Assembly: GCA_001769855.1 (NCBI GenBank)
Contig: MEPP01000001.1
Coordinates: forward strand, 722,982 to 786,981
Length of the DNA stretch: 64,000 nt
Source: Bdellovibrionales bacterium GWA2_49_15
GTDB lineage: Bacteria; Bdellovibrionota; Bacteriovoracia; Bacteriovoracales; Bacteriovoracaceae
Direction: 5' to 3'
Shown here: piece by piece, positions 5,758 to 63,569 of the stretch
Numbering within the stretch: the first letter of the stretch is position 1
How the letters are laid out: each line of letters opens with the position of its first letter
Made by a program: the position numbers and the translations under genes
The notes under the pieces: model-generated
Told to the model about the DNA's origin: nothing
Seen by the model: only the letters and a program-made list of their open reading frames with translations
Databases searched by the model: none

Positions 5758-5763
5758 AGTATA
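5758..5763 (-). promoter_or_regulatory. Possible -10 element for ggt
   Basis: TATACT on the minus strand, 41 bases before the TTG start of ggt. No good -35 hexamer is seen at 16-18 bases; the repeat half-copy occupies that place, so an activator could replace it. Confidence 0.35.
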
Positions 5764-5770
5764 CATATAA

Positions 5771-5798
5771 TGCTTTGCTCATGAAAGGTATCACGTAC
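5771..5798 (-). repeat. Degenerate half-copy of the 68-bp palindrome found at 59789
   Basis: These 28 bases match 25 of 28 of the right arm of the perfect palindrome (59829-59856): TGCTTTGCTCA, then three differences around AAAGGTATCACG. Only one arm is present here. Reading towards ggt it is followed by TATAT and TATACT (5763-5758), so it overlaps the likely ggt promoter region. It may be an operator or the remnant of a dispersed palindromic repeat. Confidence 0.7.
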
Positions 5799-21478: not shown

Positions 21479-22708
21479 CTACTCAAACAAAAAATTCTTC
21501 TCTTTCACAAATTTTCCCCGAACATCAAAGGTATAAATCTGGGCGGTGGATAAGGCCAGCTTCTGCTCGTCTTCCATCGGATGCTTGAGTAAAAACTCTT
21601 TTACATAGTCTTGGTTGGCACGAGTCGTGGGGCGTTTCGGCGCAAAAAGTGCGCAGGCGTCATCGTGAGGAATGATACTGGTTTGGTAAGTTCCAATCTT
21701 TTTGGCCCAGTCGATGATTTCAATCTTGTTTAGCCCAATGAGCGGCCGCAAAACTATCAGCTTGAGCAGGGTATTAATAACCGACAGATTTACAAGAGTT
21801 TGACTTGATACCTGACCCAGGCCATCCCCTGTAATCAGGGCACCAGCCTCAACTTTATCCGCCAACAATTCTGCGGTTTTCAGCATGTAGAGACGAAATA
21901 AAACTGTTCGGTATTCGGGATAGGCATGCGTACCGATTATCTCTTGAATTTTGCCAAACGGGATCACCACTAGCTTTGTTTTGCGATGGGAAGGTGCCAG
22001 GAGCCCAATCAACTTTATGATCTTCTCTTTGACCTCATCCCCCACATAGGGATAGGCATGAAAGAAGGCGAAGGTTTGGGCCAGACCGCGTTTGGCCATG
22101 AAATAGCTGGCGACTGGTGAGTCAATCCCTCCCGAGATAAGGGTAATTGCATGTCCTGCAGTGCCAATGGGCAAGCCACCCATGCCCCGAAAATACTCGG
22201 TCGCGACCAAAATTTTCTCACTCTCAACAAACACTTCGATTAAAAAATCCGGCCGGTGAACATCAACCTTGAGCTCGGGGAAGGCCACTAGTAACAGGTG
22301 GCCGAGTTCACGGGAAATTTCCATCGAGTTCATGGAAAATTTTTTATCAGACCGATAGGTTTCCACCTTGAAGGTAAAAGGCCATCTTTTGGCCTTCATC
22401 TTGAGAATAGATCGTTGGGCCGATAGGAACATGGCTTCGAGCGTGCGCTCCACCACGCACTCCACCGGAATAATGGTGTGCAGCCCGGGTAACAAGCGAA
22501 GGCCGCGGATCAGTTGCTCGGGAATTGATGGAAACCGTTCACTAAATTCACATAGAAACCGCTGCCCCTGGTTTCTCAAGGTAAAGGCCCCAACCTTCTC
22601 TGCAATAAAATACTCACGCAAATGCTCACGCATCATCTCAAAGTAACCATCACGATTTTTACCCTTAAGCCAGAGTTCATCCACCGAGATTAAAAGAGCT
22701 TGTTGCAT
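21479..22708 (-). CDS. thiI: tRNA 4-thiouridine synthase ThiI, without rhodanese domain
   Basis: 409 residues. An N-terminal ferredoxin-like and THUMP part is followed by the PP-loop ATPase with LISGGIDSPVASYF, which activates U8 of tRNA. The block DACALFAPKRPTT carries the conserved Cys. There is no rhodanese domain at the end, as in the shorter ThiI of Gram-positives and archaea; sulfur would then come directly from a cysteine desulfurase. Such a gene lies 6 bases upstream, so the pair makes sense as an operon. The thiazole role of ThiI needs the rhodanese part in enterobacteria and so is less likely here. Confidence 0.92.
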   Translation of the reverse strand: MQQALLISVDELWLKGKNRDGYFEMMREHLREYFIAEKVGAFTLRNQGQRFLCEFSERFPSIPEQLIRGLRLLPGLHTIIPVECVVERTLEAMFLSAQRSILKMKAKRWPFTFKVETYRSDKKFSMNSMEISRELGHLLLVAFPELKVDVHRPDFLIEVFVESEKILVATEYFRGMGGLPIGTAGHAITLISGGIDSPVASYFMAKRGLAQTFAFFHAYPYVGDEVKEKIIKLIGLLAPSHRKTKLVVIPFGKIQEIIGTHAYPEYRTVLFRLYMLKTAELLADKVEAGALITGDGLGQVSSQTLVNLSVINTLLKLIVLRPLIGLNKIEIIDWAKKIGTYQTSIIPHDDACALFAPKRPTTRANQDYVKEFLLKHPMEDEQKLALSTAQIYTFDVRGKFVKEKNFLFE

Positions 22709-57643: not shown

Positions 57644-58888
57644 ATGCCAAAGAGCGATTACCGAAATAAATATCAGGAACATCTGTCGCGCCTGCCTGTG
57701 GCCACGGCACTCTCTGAAAAGGACCTGCAACTTTTGCAAAACTACGCTTTGCAGTTTCGCCCGACTTTCCAGGAATTAAAAACTCTCCACGGAATTTTTG
57801 TGGATTTTAAGATGTGGGGCCAGACTTTGGTTACCTCAGAGTCCTTTTCCAGCAAAGACTCAATGCTGAGCTACTTCAAAGGTATTCACCAGCAGTTCAT
57901 TAAGGAGGGCCGTGCTTATACGCAGGAGGCGTTACGGACAGAAAAGCAACCCGTCTTCACCTACAAACCCCTCCCGCCAGAAGATAAGATCATGGGCACC
58001 TGCCCTGTCGCCTCGGAAAAAACGTTGTGCTGCAACCTGCTCACCCTCGATGCGGCCAGAAATTGCGCCTTCGACTGCTCTTACTGTAGCATCCGTTCTT
58101 TCTATCCGGACAATGACGTTTTTATCGAAAATAATCTGGCGGAAAAATTGAGTCAGCTCCAGCTTGATCCGACAAAAACATATCATATTGGAACCGGCCA
58201 ATCGTCGGACTCCCTGATCTGGGGAAATCGGGCAAATATCCTTGATGCCTTAGTTGATTTTGCCCGCAAGAATCCCAATGTCATTCTTGAGTTCAAAAGC
58301 AAATCAAACAACATCGATTATTTTCTCAATCGTCAAATTCCCCGCAATATTCTTTTTACCTGGAGCTTAAACCCCGACATCATCATCAAAAACGAAGAGC
58401 CGATGACCAGTTCCTTGGCTGCTCGTTTAAAGGCCGCGCAGCAAATCAGCGCGAAAGGTAATCTGGTGGGATTTCATTTTCATCCCCTCTTCATTTATGA
58501 GGGCCATGAGGTTGATTACCGAAATTTGATCGGCCAGCTGACGTCACTTTTTACGCCGGAGCAAGTTGCGACAATTTCCATGGGAACCCTAACTTTCACC
58601 AAGAAAACTATGCGTCTCATCCGAAAAAGAAATATTCAAAGTAAAGTGTTACAGATGGAGCTGGAGGAAATTGCCGGGAAATATTCCCATACTTCAGAGA
58701 TCAAGGCCGGGCTTTTTAACACCATCTATCAGATGTTCCAACCATGGCATGGGAAAGTTTTTTTCTACCTGTGCATGGAAGAAAAAAGTATCTGGGACAA
58801 AGTTTTTAGGTTTTCTTACGCTAATAATGACGACTTTGATCGGGCCATGAAGGCCGCCTATGCGGGTAAGATACAAAGCTTGCCCTGA
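57644..58888 (+). CDS. Spore photoproduct lyase-like radical SAM protein
   Basis: 414 residues. Radical SAM cluster CAFDCSYC (Cys-x3-Cys-x2-Cys). SPL-type blocks include LCCNLLTLDAARNC before it, and the downstream FKSKSNNIDYFLNRQIP, SLNPDIIIKNEEPMTSSL and GFHFHPLF, which resemble the SPL/SplB family (COG1533). In spore formers the enzyme repairs thymine dimers of the spore-photoproduct type; no spore genes are present here, so the role must differ or repair other lesions. It starts 5 bases after the kinase gene and overlaps yhcC, which runs the other way, by 31 bases. Confidence 0.82.
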   Translation: MPKSDYRNKYQEHLSRLPVATALSEKDLQLLQNYALQFRPTFQELKTLHGIFVDFKMWGQTLVTSESFSSKDSMLSYFKGIHQQFIKEGRAYTQEALRTEKQPVFTYKPLPPEDKIMGTCPVASEKTLCCNLLTLDAARNCAFDCSYCSIRSFYPDNDVFIENNLAEKLSQLQLDPTKTYHIGTGQSSDSLIWGNRANILDALVDFARKNPNVILEFKSKSNNIDYFLNRQIPRNILFTWSLNPDIIIKNEEPMTSSLAARLKAAQQISAKGNLVGFHFHPLFIYEGHEVDYRNLIGQLTSLFTPEQVATISMGTLTFTKKTMRLIRKRNIQSKVLQMELEEIAGKYSHTSEIKAGLFNTIYQMFQPWHGKVFFYLCMEEKSIWDKVFRFSYANNDDFDRAMKAAYAGKIQSLP

Positions 58889-59772
58889 TACAATTGGTTT
58901 TTCTGCATATAGTGCTCAAGCTCACCATGAAAGCTGCGGGCATCAGTCACCCAATCCGGAGCAATCAGATGTTCCTCGGTGGTGTAGGCAAAGGCCCGCC
59001 CAATTGAGATGCGGGGTGAAAGATGGGTCAGAAATTCGGCGGCAATGCGCATGTAATCGGTCTTGGATAAAAGCGGAAACGCCTTTCGCTTATACTCCTC
59101 GCCCATCACGGTTTTACTCACCACAATGAGATTGTGAAGCTTGAGCATGTTAATTGGCAGTTGCGCCGCCAAGCGGGCCGATTCAATCCAGAAGGCCTCG
59201 TTTTCCCAGGGAAAGCCAATCATCAGATGGGTGGCCACTTTCACTTTTGGGGCAAACTTTTTCACTCGTTCCACAGCAGCATAAAAATCGGCGACACTAT
59301 GCCCGCGATTCACCCGTTTTAAGGTGTCATCCGAAAAGCTCTCAAGGCCAATTTCCAGCATCACCTCAAACCTGTCCGTATACTCATTGAGAAGCAGCAG
59401 GACATCTTCGGACAAACAATCAGGCCGAGTCCCAATACTGAGGCCCACCATGCCGGGAAACTGCAGGACTTTGCTATAAAGTTTTCTGAGATGGGGCACC
59501 GGGGCATAGGTATTGGTGTAACTCTGAAGATAGGCAATTAACTTTGTGCCGACTGGATAACGGAGCAAGGCCTGCTTGATTTGAGATTCAATTTCCACAT
59601 CGTAGGCAGAATTCTTCGAGAAGGAAGGATTGGAACAGTAGGTACATCCCCCGACGCCCTGGGAGCCATCGCGGTTGGGACAGGTCATCCCGGCATCCAC
59701 AGAGACCTTATAGACCGGTGCTCCAAAACGTTGGGTTAAGTATTCTTTATAAAAGAAAATAGGGCGCTTCAA
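58858..59772 (-). CDS. yhcC: YhcC-family radical SAM protein
   Basis: 304 residues. TIGR01212-type radical SAM: FGAPVYKVSVDAGMTCPNRDG with the second cluster part GCTYCSNPSF, then KLIAYLQSYTNTYAP and GLSIGTRPDCLSED. The family usually begins a few residues before the block YLTQRFG, so the true start is probably TTG 59772, with AGGAG 5 bases upstream. An in-frame ATG at 59820 would make the first 16 residues from the palindrome next to the gene, which is not credible. Function of the family is unknown; a link to RNA or Fe-S processes is often assumed. Confidence 0.85.
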   Translation of the reverse strand: MKRPIFFYKEYLTQRFGAPVYKVSVDAGMTCPNRDGSQGVGGCTYCSNPSFSKNSAYDVEIESQIKQALLRYPVGTKLIAYLQSYTNTYAPVPHLRKLYSKVLQFPGMVGLSIGTRPDCLSEDVLLLLNEYTDRFEVMLEIGLESFSDDTLKRVNRGHSVADFYAAVERVKKFAPKVKVATHLMIGFPWENEAFWIESARLAAQLPINMLKLHNLIVVSKTVMGEEYKRKAFPLLSKTDYMRIAAEFLTHLSPRISIGRAFAYTTEEHLIAPDWVTDARSFHGELEHYMQKNQLYQGKLCILPA

Positions 59773-59788
59773 AACTGCTCCTAGTTCA

Positions 59789-59856
59789 GTCCGTGATACC
59801 TTTTCTGAGCAAAGCAGCATATATATGCTGCTTTGCTCAGAAAAGGTATCACGGAC
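59789..59856. repeat. Perfect 68-bp palindrome between yhcC and the PFOR gene
   Basis: Every base of 59789-59822 pairs with the complement in 59823-59856: 34-bp arms with no spacer. The arms contain GTGATACC, TGAGCAAAGCA and a central ATATATAT. One arm is also found in degenerate form at 5771-5798 (25 of 28 bases). It lies 17 bases before the TTG start of yhcC and 125 bases before the PFOR start. It may be a two-sided operator/promoter, a cruciform-forming element or a repeat-family member. Confidence 0.9.
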
Positions 59857-59981
59857 CTGAAAAAATGCCTAAAAGTATATGATAAAAGCGGATGCCAAAT
59901 TCATGCAAATAGCAGTATGTTAGACAGCTTAAATTCTTCTTTCTTTATTAGACAAACTGATACCCTTTTTTGGAGTACGTT

Positions 59982-62900
59982 ATGACCACATCTACCAAGA
60001 TTTTAGTTGATGGCAATGAAGCCGCCGCCCATATTGCCTACCGAGTGAGTGAAGTTATCGCTATCTATCCCATTACCCCTTCTTCCAACATGGGTGAATG
60101 GGCCGATGCCTGGAGTGCAGAGGACACCCCGAATATCTGGGGCACGATTCCAAAAGTTGTCGAAATGCAGAGCGAGGGTGGGGCCGCCGGAACTGTTCAT
60201 GGGGCCCTTCAGGCAGGATCGCTGTCCACAACCTTCACGGCTTCTCAAGGCCTACTTCTCATGATTCCCAATATGTATAAAATCGCCGGTGAGTTAACCC
60301 CCACCGTTTTTCACATCGCCGCCCGCTCGCTGGCCGCCCAGGCCCTGTCGATCTTTGGCGACCATTCAGATGTCATGTCGGCGCGACAAACTGGCTTTGC
60401 CATGCTGTCCTCCAATTCCGTCCAGGAAACCATGGATATGGCGCTCATTGCCCACTCGGCAACCCTGAAGGCCCAGCTCCCCTTCATGCATTTCTTTGAC
60501 GGATTTCGCACCTCTCACGAGGTGGCAAAGATTGAAGAGGTCAGCGACGCCACAATCAGGGCCATGATCAGTGATGACGATGTCATGAGCTTTCGCAAAC
60601 GCGCCCTGACTCCCGATCGCCCCGTGATTCGCGGCACCGCTCAAAATCCGGACGTCTACTTTCAAGGAAGGGAAACCTCCAACCCATTCTACGCCCGCAC
60701 TCCGCAGATTGTAGAAGACTGCATGAAAAATTTTGCCAAGCTGACCGGGCGTAAATATGACCTTTTTAATTACGTCGGGGCACCGGATGCCGAGCGCGTG
60801 ATCATTATGATGGGCTCAGGGGCCGAGGCCGCCCACGAGCTGGTTGACGTGCTCCTTGAGCGCGGAGAAAAAGTGGGACTCCTCAAGGTCCGTCTGTATC
60901 GCCCATTTAGTATTGAGCACTTTGTTCACGCTCTACCAAAAACCATAAAATCACTCGCCGTTCTAGATCGCACTAAGGAGCCCGGCGCAATCGGCGATCC
61001 TCTCTATCTTGATGTCGTCACCGCCATCGCTGAGACATTCCAAAATGGAACAGCTCCTTTTAAAACCTTGCCCAAGATCTTCGGTGGGCGTTACGGCCTT
61101 TCATCCAAAGAGTTTACTCCAGGCATGATTAAGGCGATCTACGACGAATTGAAAAAAGATCGGCCAAAAAATCATTTTACAATCGGGATCAACGACGACG
61201 TTTCCCATTCATCTTTAGAATGGGATAAAAATTTTTCAATTGAAAAAGACACGACCTTTCGGGGAATTTTCTGGGGTCTGGGTGCCGATGGCACAGTCTC
61301 GGCCAACAAAAATTCCATTAAAATCATCGGCGAAGAAACAGAAAACTTTGCCCAAGGATACTTTGTCTACGACTCCAAAAAATCTGGCTCGGTAACCACA
61401 TCCTATCTCCGTTTTGGAAAAAGCCCCATTCGTTCAAGTTACCTGATCAGCACCGCCAATTTCGTGGCCTGCCACCAGTTTCAATTTCTGGAGCAGTTTG
61501 ATGTCTTGGAAAAGGCCGGCACTGGCGCCACGTTCTTGCTGAACTCGCCCTATAGTCATGAGCAGGTGTGGGACCATCTGCCACGCTCCGTTCAAGAAAC
61601 AATCATCGCCAAGAAATTAAAATTTCATGCCATCGATGCGGTCAAGGTGGCGCGTGAAACCGGGATGGGAGGCAGGGTTAACACGATTATGCAAACCTGC
61701 TTCTTTGCCATCTCAGGAATTCTTCCCGCAGATGAGTCGATTGCCAAAATCAAATCGGCCATCAAAAAAACTTTTGGTAAAAAGGGTGATGAGATTGTTA
61801 ATCAGAATTATAAAGCCGTGGATATGACGGTCCAGAATCTCTTCAAAATTACTGTCCCCCAAAAGGCCACAAGCAAATTTGTCCTTTCAAATACCGTTGC
61901 CGATCACGCCCCCACTTTTGTCAAAGAAGTGACCTGTGCCATTATGGCGGGCAAAGGTGATGATCTTCCCGTCAGCAAAATACCCAATGACGGCACGTAT
62001 CCCGTCGGCACCACTCAATGGGAAAAACGCAACATTGCCCAAGATATTCCCGTGTGGGAAGCTGATATCTGTATTCAATGTGGCAAATGTGCCTTCATCT
62101 GTCCTCATGGCGTCATCCGCTCTAAGGTTTACGAGGAAAAAGATTTAGCCGGCGCTCCCGCGACTTATAAATCCACGAAAACCAAGGGCAGTGACTTTGG
62201 TCCCGGGACCCTCTACACCATTCAGGTAGCGCCTGAAGATTGCACGGGTTGCGAGTTGTGCGTGGAAATCTGTCCTGCCAAAAGCAAAACGGACTCTTCG
62301 AAGAAGGCCATCAATATGGCCCTTCAGCGTCCTATCCGCGAAACAGAGAAGGCCAACTGGAATTTCTTCTTAAACATTCCGGAGTTTGATCGCAGCAAAA
62401 TTAAATCCCATACGGTGAAAGGTTCTCAGGTTCTGCAGCCTCTGTTTGAATTCTCAGGAGCTTGTGCCGGATGTGGAGAAACTCCGTACATCAAGCTTGC
62501 GACTCAGCTTTTCGGAGATCGCATGCTGGTGGCCAATGCCACGGGATGTTCGTCTATTTACGGCGGCAATCTTCCGACCACCCCTTACACCAATAACTCC
62601 ACGGGAAAAGGCCCGGCGTGGTCAAATTCTCTTTTTGAAGACAACGCTGAATTTGGCCTTGGATATCGCTTGGCGATAGACAAAAAGAAAGTTCAGGCGG
62701 AAGAGCTGCTGAAAAAAATGGCTTCCCAGTTAGGCGAGCAGTTAGTGACACCTATTCTGGAATCCAAGCAGAACGATGAGGCGGAAATTTTTAGCCAGCG
62801 GGCCCGCGTCGAGGTGCTCAAAGAAAAAATTTCCAAGATGACCACCAGTGATGCCAAACACCTGACGAGCATGGCCGATTATCTGGTCAAAAAGAGTGTA

Positions 62901-63569
62901 TGGATCGTGGGAGGCGATGGATGGGCCTACGACATCGGCTATGGCGGCCTCGATCACGTGCTGGCCTCGGGTGCGGATGTCAACATCCTGGTGCTCGATA
63001 CTGAAGTTTACTCCAATACCGGCGGACAGATGTCCAAGTCGACTCCGATTGGTGCCGTGGCAAAATTTGCAGCGGCAGGCAGGCCCACAGGAAAAAAAGA
63101 CCTAGGTTTATTGGCCATGAGCTACGGCCATGTTTACGTGGCGAAGGTTGCCATGGGTGCCAATGATACCCATACTCTCAAGGCCTTCCTCGAAGCCGAA
63201 CGCTACCCCGGCCCATCGCTGATCATTGCTTATAGCCCTTGTATCGCGCACGGATACAATATGCGCTACATGGCCACCCAGCAAAAGATGGCAGTGGACA
63301 GCGGGCATTGGCATCTCTACCGCTACAACCCTGATAGTCCGCAGAAAGGACTCAATCCGTTTGTGATGGATTCCAAGGCGCCCAAAACTCTTTTGAAAGA
63401 TTACATGGATCAGGAAGCGCGCTTTAAAATGCTCAAGAAAATCGATCCGGCGCGGGCCGAACATCTGTATGTGAAAGCTCAGCAATTTGTGACCGAGAAA
63501 TACAAATTTTACGATGCCCTGGCCAAATTGGGACAAGACAAGACCGGCTCGACTGATGACAACGAATAA
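59982..63569 (+). CDS. nifJ: Pyruvate:ferredoxin (flavodoxin) oxidoreductase
   Basis: 1195 residues, a full single-chain PFOR. It converts pyruvate, CoA and oxidised ferredoxin or flavodoxin to acetyl-CoA, CO2 and reduced carrier, using thiamine diphosphate. Blocks in order: IYPITPSSNMGEWAD near the N-terminus, the two-cluster ferredoxin domain (CIQCGKCAFICPHGVI; CTGCELCVEICPA), the third-cluster CAGCGETPYIKL, and the ThDP block GGDGWAYDIGYGGLDHVL. ATG 59982 has TGGAG 6 bases upstream; an earlier TTG at 59970 lacks it. A dihydroorotate-dehydrogenase-like gene follows after 18 bases. It marks low-potential or oxygen-poor metabolism. Confidence 0.96.
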   Translation: MTTSTKILVDGNEAAAHIAYRVSEVIAIYPITPSSNMGEWADAWSAEDTPNIWGTIPKVVEMQSEGGAAGTVHGALQAGSLSTTFTASQGLLLMIPNMYKIAGELTPTVFHIAARSLAAQALSIFGDHSDVMSARQTGFAMLSSNSVQETMDMALIAHSATLKAQLPFMHFFDGFRTSHEVAKIEEVSDATIRAMISDDDVMSFRKRALTPDRPVIRGTAQNPDVYFQGRETSNPFYARTPQIVEDCMKNFAKLTGRKYDLFNYVGAPDAERVIIMMGSGAEAAHELVDVLLERGEKVGLLKVRLYRPFSIEHFVHALPKTIKSLAVLDRTKEPGAIGDPLYLDVVTAIAETFQNGTAPFKTLPKIFGGRYGLSSKEFTPGMIKAIYDELKKDRPKNHFTIGINDDVSHSSLEWDKNFSIEKDTTFRGIFWGLGADGTVSANKNSIKIIGEETENFAQGYFVYDSKKSGSVTTSYLRFGKSPIRSSYLISTANFVACHQFQFLEQFDVLEKAGTGATFLLNSPYSHEQVWDHLPRSVQETIIAKKLKFHAIDAVKVARETGMGGRVNTIMQTCFFAISGILPADESIAKIKSAIKKTFGKKGDEIVNQNYKAVDMTVQNLFKITVPQKATSKFVLSNTVADHAPTFVKEVTCAIMAGKGDDLPVSKIPNDGTYPVGTTQWEKRNIAQDIPVWEADICIQCGKCAFICPHGVIRSKVYEEKDLAGAPATYKSTKTKGSDFGPGTLYTIQVAPEDCTGCELCVEICPAKSKTDSSKKAINMALQRPIRETEKANWNFFLNIPEFDRSKIKSHTVKGSQVLQPLFEFSGACAGCGETPYIKLATQLFGDRMLVANATGCSSIYGGNLPTTPYTNNSTGKGPAWSNSLFEDNAEFGLGYRLAIDKKKVQAEELLKKMASQLGEQLVTPILESKQNDEAEIFSQRARVEVLKEKISKMTTSDAKHLTSMADYLVKKSVWIVGGDGWAYDIGYGGLDHVLASGADVNILVLDTEVYSNTGGQMSKSTPIGAVAKFAAAGRPTGKKDLGLLAMSYGHVYVAKVAMGANDTHTLKAFLEAERYPGPSLIIAYSPCIAHGYNMRYMATQQKMAVDSGHWHLYRYNPDSPQKGLNPFVMDSKAPKTLLKDYMDQEARFKMLKKIDPARAEHLYVKAQQFVTEKYKFYDALAKLGQDKTGSTDDNE

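Follow-up and report, generated by a model that had tools for sequence, protein, structure and literature searches.

Between two divergent genes of Bdellovibrionales bacterium GWA2_49_15 lies a perfect palindrome, at positions 59789-59856 of the 64,000-nt stretch analysed here (the window, C1:722982-786981 of a 4.86-Mb host genome in 32 contigs). Is it a switch shared by its neighbours, one copy of a dispersed repeat, or a product of assembly? We consider it very likely to be a non-autonomous, REPIN-like element that is mobilised in trans by a RAYT (REP-associated tyrosine transposase) flanked by terminal inverted repeats (TIRs), with half copies elsewhere representing remnants or single ends; the mobilisation itself is what we infer. 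In this spacer the element most likely rides along as a passenger instead of serving both neighbours as a gene switch.

Structure of the palindrome

As the preliminary description stated, each arm (59789-59822; 59823-59856) has 34 nt, and the two are 100% complementary with a spacer of 0 nt. An inverted-repeat search of the window returned just two structures, of which this was the stronger; by simple arithmetic (64000 x 4^-34), the chance expectation for a palindrome with 34-nt arms is about 2e-16. Folded as single-stranded DNA, it reached -41.3 kcal/mol, compared with -6.2 for shuffled sequences (z -18.7), and its core pattern had three matches in the window and none in 100 shuffles. The motif search placed the left end motif, GTCCGTGATACCTTTT, at 59789-59804 on the plus strand and the same motif inverted at 59841-59856 on the minus strand, and these ends assign the palindrome to the GTACGTGATAC-end family. 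The symmetry runs on to TTCA (59785) and TGAA (59861), interrupted by one unpaired base, C59857. Judging from sequence and fold, and from two other copies that read YAGGTAC...GTACCTR, the original element probably extended over 59785-59861 (TTCA-GTCC...GGAC-C-TGAA), 4 nt further on each side.

Perfect symmetry without a spacer is typical of fold-back assembly artefacts and chimeric reads, and the assembly is in 32 contigs, but the symmetry here ends after about 38 bp, the flanks are unique and syntenic with those of the sister species G002, and the host and other genomes have further, independent palindromes of this family whose stems differ. We thus rejected the artefact that had been listed among the possible meanings of the palindrome; its probability is negligible. 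A transcriptional terminator or mRNA-stability hairpin recruited at several loci would agree with the very stable fold. This explanation is highly improbable, however, as the genes on its two sides diverge, so that the palindrome borders their 5' ends and no 3' end, and the search found no terminator-like site. Comparison with Rfam gave unrelated matches, mostly to microRNA hairpin models and below the cut-offs, which are a by-product of the long stem.

A family of repeats in the host genome

The preliminary description knew of two copies and proposed a search of the whole genome. Run with the end motif AAAARGTATCACGTACC and up to 2 mismatches, this search gave 20 matches, compared with 2 for the motif read backwards as a control, so the count of two did not hold. 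Of the copies of the GGTACGTGATACTTTT end motif, some are paired in four palindromes, which measure 61-70 bp; several others stand alone as single ends, and one inverted pair encloses a RAYT-type gene. Besides the window copy, the palindromes are at C1:695208-695276, C1:686600-686669 and C31:218264-218326, the last with extra tandem ends. All strong copies of the motif are outside confident genes, and the copies adjoin unrelated genes such as argC. The two matches inside open reading frames (C21, C23) carry 2 mismatches, consistent with the control count. A scan of genome contigs for exact palindromes had a single match, in the metagenome-assembled genome Bacteriovoracia bacterium 6_bin.70.

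The second copy in the window, before ggt, is a half copy at 5758-5798 (plus strand; 41 nt at 83%), which retains the centre and one arm and has lost the other outer arm. Its core at 5771-5798 matches one arm of the palindrome at 25 of 28 positions, as first reported. The TATAT stretch had been taken for a flanking feature of both copies; because the similarity of the half copy extends to 41 nt including the AT-rich centre, this stretch belongs to the repeat and is in fact its centre. The half copy overlaps ggt solely through a mechanical upstream extension of that open reading frame.

Two further arrangements were observed. At C31:218239-218349 the palindrome has tandem ends on either side, resembling REPIN clusters. 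The single ends at C1:650839 and C1:652305, 1.5 kb apart, have equal orientation and are both preceded by CGTTCAG; a decayed RAYT was looked for near them and not found.

Neighbouring genes and sites lacking the repeat in a sister species

Both neighbours of the palindrome are outside the element. On the minus strand (58858-59772) is a yhcC-like radical SAM gene (TIGR01212, MnmL/YtqA) with a likely TTG start at 59772 and a likely ribosome-binding site, AGGAGC, at 59777-59782; on the plus strand (59982-63569) is a nifJ-type pyruvate:ferredoxin oxidoreductase gene (TIGR02176). The palindrome sits just upstream of the yhcC ribosome-binding site and just before a 70-nt block at 59863-59932 (plus strand), likely a regulatory region of nifJ. 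This block is identical to the G002 sequence at 69 of 70 positions, compared with about 77% for surrounding or nearby coding DNA, a strong conservation in its own right. The nifJ protein of G002 is 93% identical to that of the host.

A regulator binding the palindrome as an operator or bidirectional promoter, and controlling yhcC and nifJ (and ggt via the half copy), is suggested by the position of both copies between divergent genes. Several observations speak against it. G002 keeps the yhcC-nifJ gene order and the conserved block without the palindrome, and its syntenic spacer between ggt and an ExbB-like gene is without the half copy; conservation at orthologous promoters was thus not seen at nifJ or ggt in G002. 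The region gave no promoter-like match, other copies adjoin unrelated genes, the end motif bounds a transposase gene, and 68 bp of exact symmetry far exceeds ordinary operators. We therefore regard the shared operator or promoter, one of the meanings first proposed, as unsupported and very improbable. The yhcC leader may gain a hairpin from the palindrome, but the yhcC-nifJ arrangement does not need the element; a role in yhcC or nifJ expression is possible, although nothing that we found requires one.

Given its absence from the same place in the sister species, the palindrome is most likely a passenger. The spacer between yhcC and nifJ in G002 is too diverged between the conserved flanks to give an exact insertion point. 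A clean empty site was found for the palindrome at C1:686600: G002 reads TACTCTCTCC|AGTTTGG, and the host has 92 nt more. A 9-nt sequence, [AG]GAGAGAGT, is on each side of the host palindrome (8 of 9 positions duplicated) and occurs once in the empty site. At this insertion point G002 seems to have an overlap between argC and the gene upstream of it; in the host, which has 92 nt more with the 9-nt purine tract duplicated, both gene ends survive the insertion.

A RAYT-type gene bounded by the same ends

A gene for a Y1/HUH transposase of the RAYT type lies outside the window, about 32 kb away, at C1:818759-819304. The product matched Pfam Y1_Tnp (PF01797) at residues 30-139 (E 1e-8) and NCBIfam REP_Tyr_transpos (NF047646; E 1.2e-18) with 67.4 bits, which is under the curated cut-off of 80; it has intact NHYH (HUH) and YIYQNP motifs and a weak sequence match to the TnpArep structure 4er8 (E 0.035). 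Pfam found Y1_Tnp alone in this product and no C-terminal HTH domain, and no tnpB was seen beside the gene. One copy of the TIR, GGGTACGTGATACTTTT, is 116 nt before the ATG and an inverted copy is 30 nt after the stop codon, so the ends of the palindrome, [A]GGTACGTGATACTTTT, are also the TIRs that bound this gene. Comparison of the locus with the two species of the same genus yielded no match in G002 and, in G001, matches that end before the element is reached.

Of the 36 testable RAYT-like loci of the host and its relatives, 29 have their own specific TIRs (score >=12), compared with 3 in a direct-repeat control. At most of the loci with TIRs the ends start with (A)GGTNC or GTNC, and GGGGTC-type ends are confined to more distant loci (L055, L061-L064).

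The repeat family, the TIRs of the RAYT gene and the absence of the repeat from orthologous sites in the sister species together support the remaining proposal of the preliminary description, namely a dispersed palindromic repeat, complete at this site and reduced to a half at ggt.

Joint change of end motif and transposase across genomes

We compared the ends of related RAYTs. The closest RAYT in G086, 56% identical to that at C1:818759-819304, is bounded by TIRs GGTACGTGGTACTTTTTCA, and the closest in G085, 55% identical, by AAGTGCGTGATACCTTTT. The end-motif pattern had 92 matches in G086 (control 2) and 58 in G085 (control 3); among the matches listed, most were the genome's own variant, many of them in inverted pairs. 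These pairs include about 20 palindromes of ~70 bp in G086 and about 10 of ~50 bp in G085, in which the ends are common and the stems vary. In G001 and G002 there were 2 matches each with 2 control matches each, that is, no excess, and the RAYT found in G002 carries a different repeat. Because the RAYT TIRs of the closest relatives are altered and the repeats in their genomes are mostly altered in a similar way, the repeat travels with its transposase.

In a tree of 28 RAYTs, those of G000, G020, G086 and G085 with this end type grouped with one more (support 100/99). This five-member clade does not have the end motif to itself, since a second RAYT outside it in both G086 and G085 has partly similar ends, GTACGTGGTACC and GTACGTGGATAC.

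Alternatively, a different enzyme might move the family, such as a DDE transposase that has TIRs and duplicates its target, and the RAYT element would merely have acquired the same ends. The 9-nt flanks of the C1:686600 palindrome, present once in the empty site, would fit this alternative. In three genomes, however, the RAYT gene lies between matching ends, and ends and RAYT vary in concert; specific TIRs were also seen at 29 of the 36 RAYT-like loci. We judge another enzyme to be improbable. IS200/IS605-type (Y1) transposition normally leaves no target duplication, and the apparent 9-nt duplication does count against a RAYT-mobilised repeat, as do the small size of the family in the host (4 palindromes) and the RAYT score below the NCBI curated cut-off. 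The duplication may have another cause, because the 9 nt are rich in purines and coincide in part with a ribosome-binding site.

Identity of the arms within elements

The two arms of an element resemble each other more than they resemble the arms of other elements. In G086 the mean arm mismatches were 2.28 within and 2.86 between elements (permutation p 0.01), and in G085 1.11 and 2.22 (permutation p 0.002). Position 17 in G086 is T, G, A or C, and the arms match there in 17 of 18 elements. Pooling G000 and G086 gave p 0.0002 (permutation), in a data set that had the C31 row off register by a few bases and, for the window copy, a G in place of the true A as the outermost base on the left; part of this pooled signal is between-genome difference, because the pool mixes two genomes. 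The mirrored changes can be read directly in the host: in the window copy both arms read GTCC where the family has GTAC, and both arms of the palindrome at C1:686600 read TTAT in place of TTTT. Compensatory stem changes were reported for REPINs by Bertels and Rainey (PMC3116915). Mirrored arms are expected of an element with a hairpin stage in its life cycle, or under selection for hairpin formation.

These features suggest how the repeat could spread. The RAYT would recognise the inverted end motif on a single-stranded hairpin, presumably in lagging-strand DNA, and act in trans, cutting and pasting or copying the whole hairpin into intergenic spacers; binding, cutting and movement are ascribed to it from its family. 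Half copies such as 5758-5798 would arise as remnants or single ends, and at 59789-59856 the element would ride as a passenger between the yhcC ribosome-binding site and the conserved block before nifJ. A bolder proposal, which we hold to be rather unlikely, is a distinct Bdellovibrionota RAYT branch with ends of the form (A)GGTNC...CTTTT without GTAG, in which the arms are kept identical via a hairpin intermediate, where one arm serves as the template for its partner. Transposition would then follow a route unlike that of IS608 and GTAG REPINs and might leave a short target duplication.

Comparison with known systems

The repeat shares several features with REPINs and their RAYTs (Bertels and Rainey, 2011; PMC3116915). 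Two inverted conserved ends, expected about 50-100 nt apart in one hairpin, are here ~16 nt long and ~70 nt apart in a long single-strand hairpin; the stems show compensatory changes; the copies are extragenic; a cognate RAYT with the Y1 domain and the HUH and Y...NP motifs of RAYT/TnpA-REP proteins is flanked by the same ends; and singlets are regarded as remnants. The differences are that the ends in all copies are GGTACGTGATACTTTT variants and not a GTAG/GTRG-tagged REP, that the window copy is spacerless, that copies are few in the host and number dozens in relatives, and that the evidence for mobility is presence or absence between species. The element thus works like a REPIN with its RAYT and falls outside the GTAG definition.

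Its nearest counterparts are the TIRtrons/TIRYTs (Di Nocera et al., 2013; PMC3733652), which probably correspond to subclass 2.1 in the classification of Quentin et al. (2018; PMC6006769). As in TIRtrons, a RAYT-like gene with an NH[YF]H HUH motif is bounded by TIRs and not by GTAG REPs, and the TIR family occurs as singles and dimers. Unlike them, the TIRs are (A)GGTNC...CTTTT and not GGGGWSAS (a motif reported for some TIRtron TIRs, not all; PMC3733652, and absent from the host TIR GGGTACGTGATACTTTT), the Y motif is YIYQNP and the host is one of the Bdellovibrionota. Subclass 2.1 differs in the C-terminal HTH, which Pfam did not find here, and in its TIR consensus. With the IS200/IS605 Y1 transposons the RAYT shares the HUH/Tyr catalytic family (Pfam PF01797); it differs from them in that no tnpB was seen, the gene copies are single and diverged, the ends are inverted repeats and not subterminal hairpins, and non-autonomous palindromes exist.

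In the literature collection that we searched, RAYT repeats were not described from Bdellovibrio-like bacteria. The present results widen the partnership of RAYTs and repeats to Bdellovibrionota, with ends other than GTAG, and show a joint change of end motif and transposase across genomes, with empty sites in the sister species. G085 and G086, where closely similar palindrome ends number in the dozens, offer a natural system for studying repeat recognition by RAYTs and arm identity.

The host has three more RAYT-like genes, each with its own TIR: C1:501459 (L037) with GGTTCCATGACCCC, C21:235501 (L038) with AGGTGCCAGGAGC and C1:623226 (L039) with TAGGTGCCACACGCC. Window positions 21993-22004 match the L038 end exactly (GGTGCCAGGAGC), a single match, possibly in coding DNA, where 0.29 were expected at up to 1 mismatch. 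Two tandem copies of the L038 end motif, GGCTCCTGGCACCTCGTTA, adjoin the right end of the RAYT element at C1:818759-819304.
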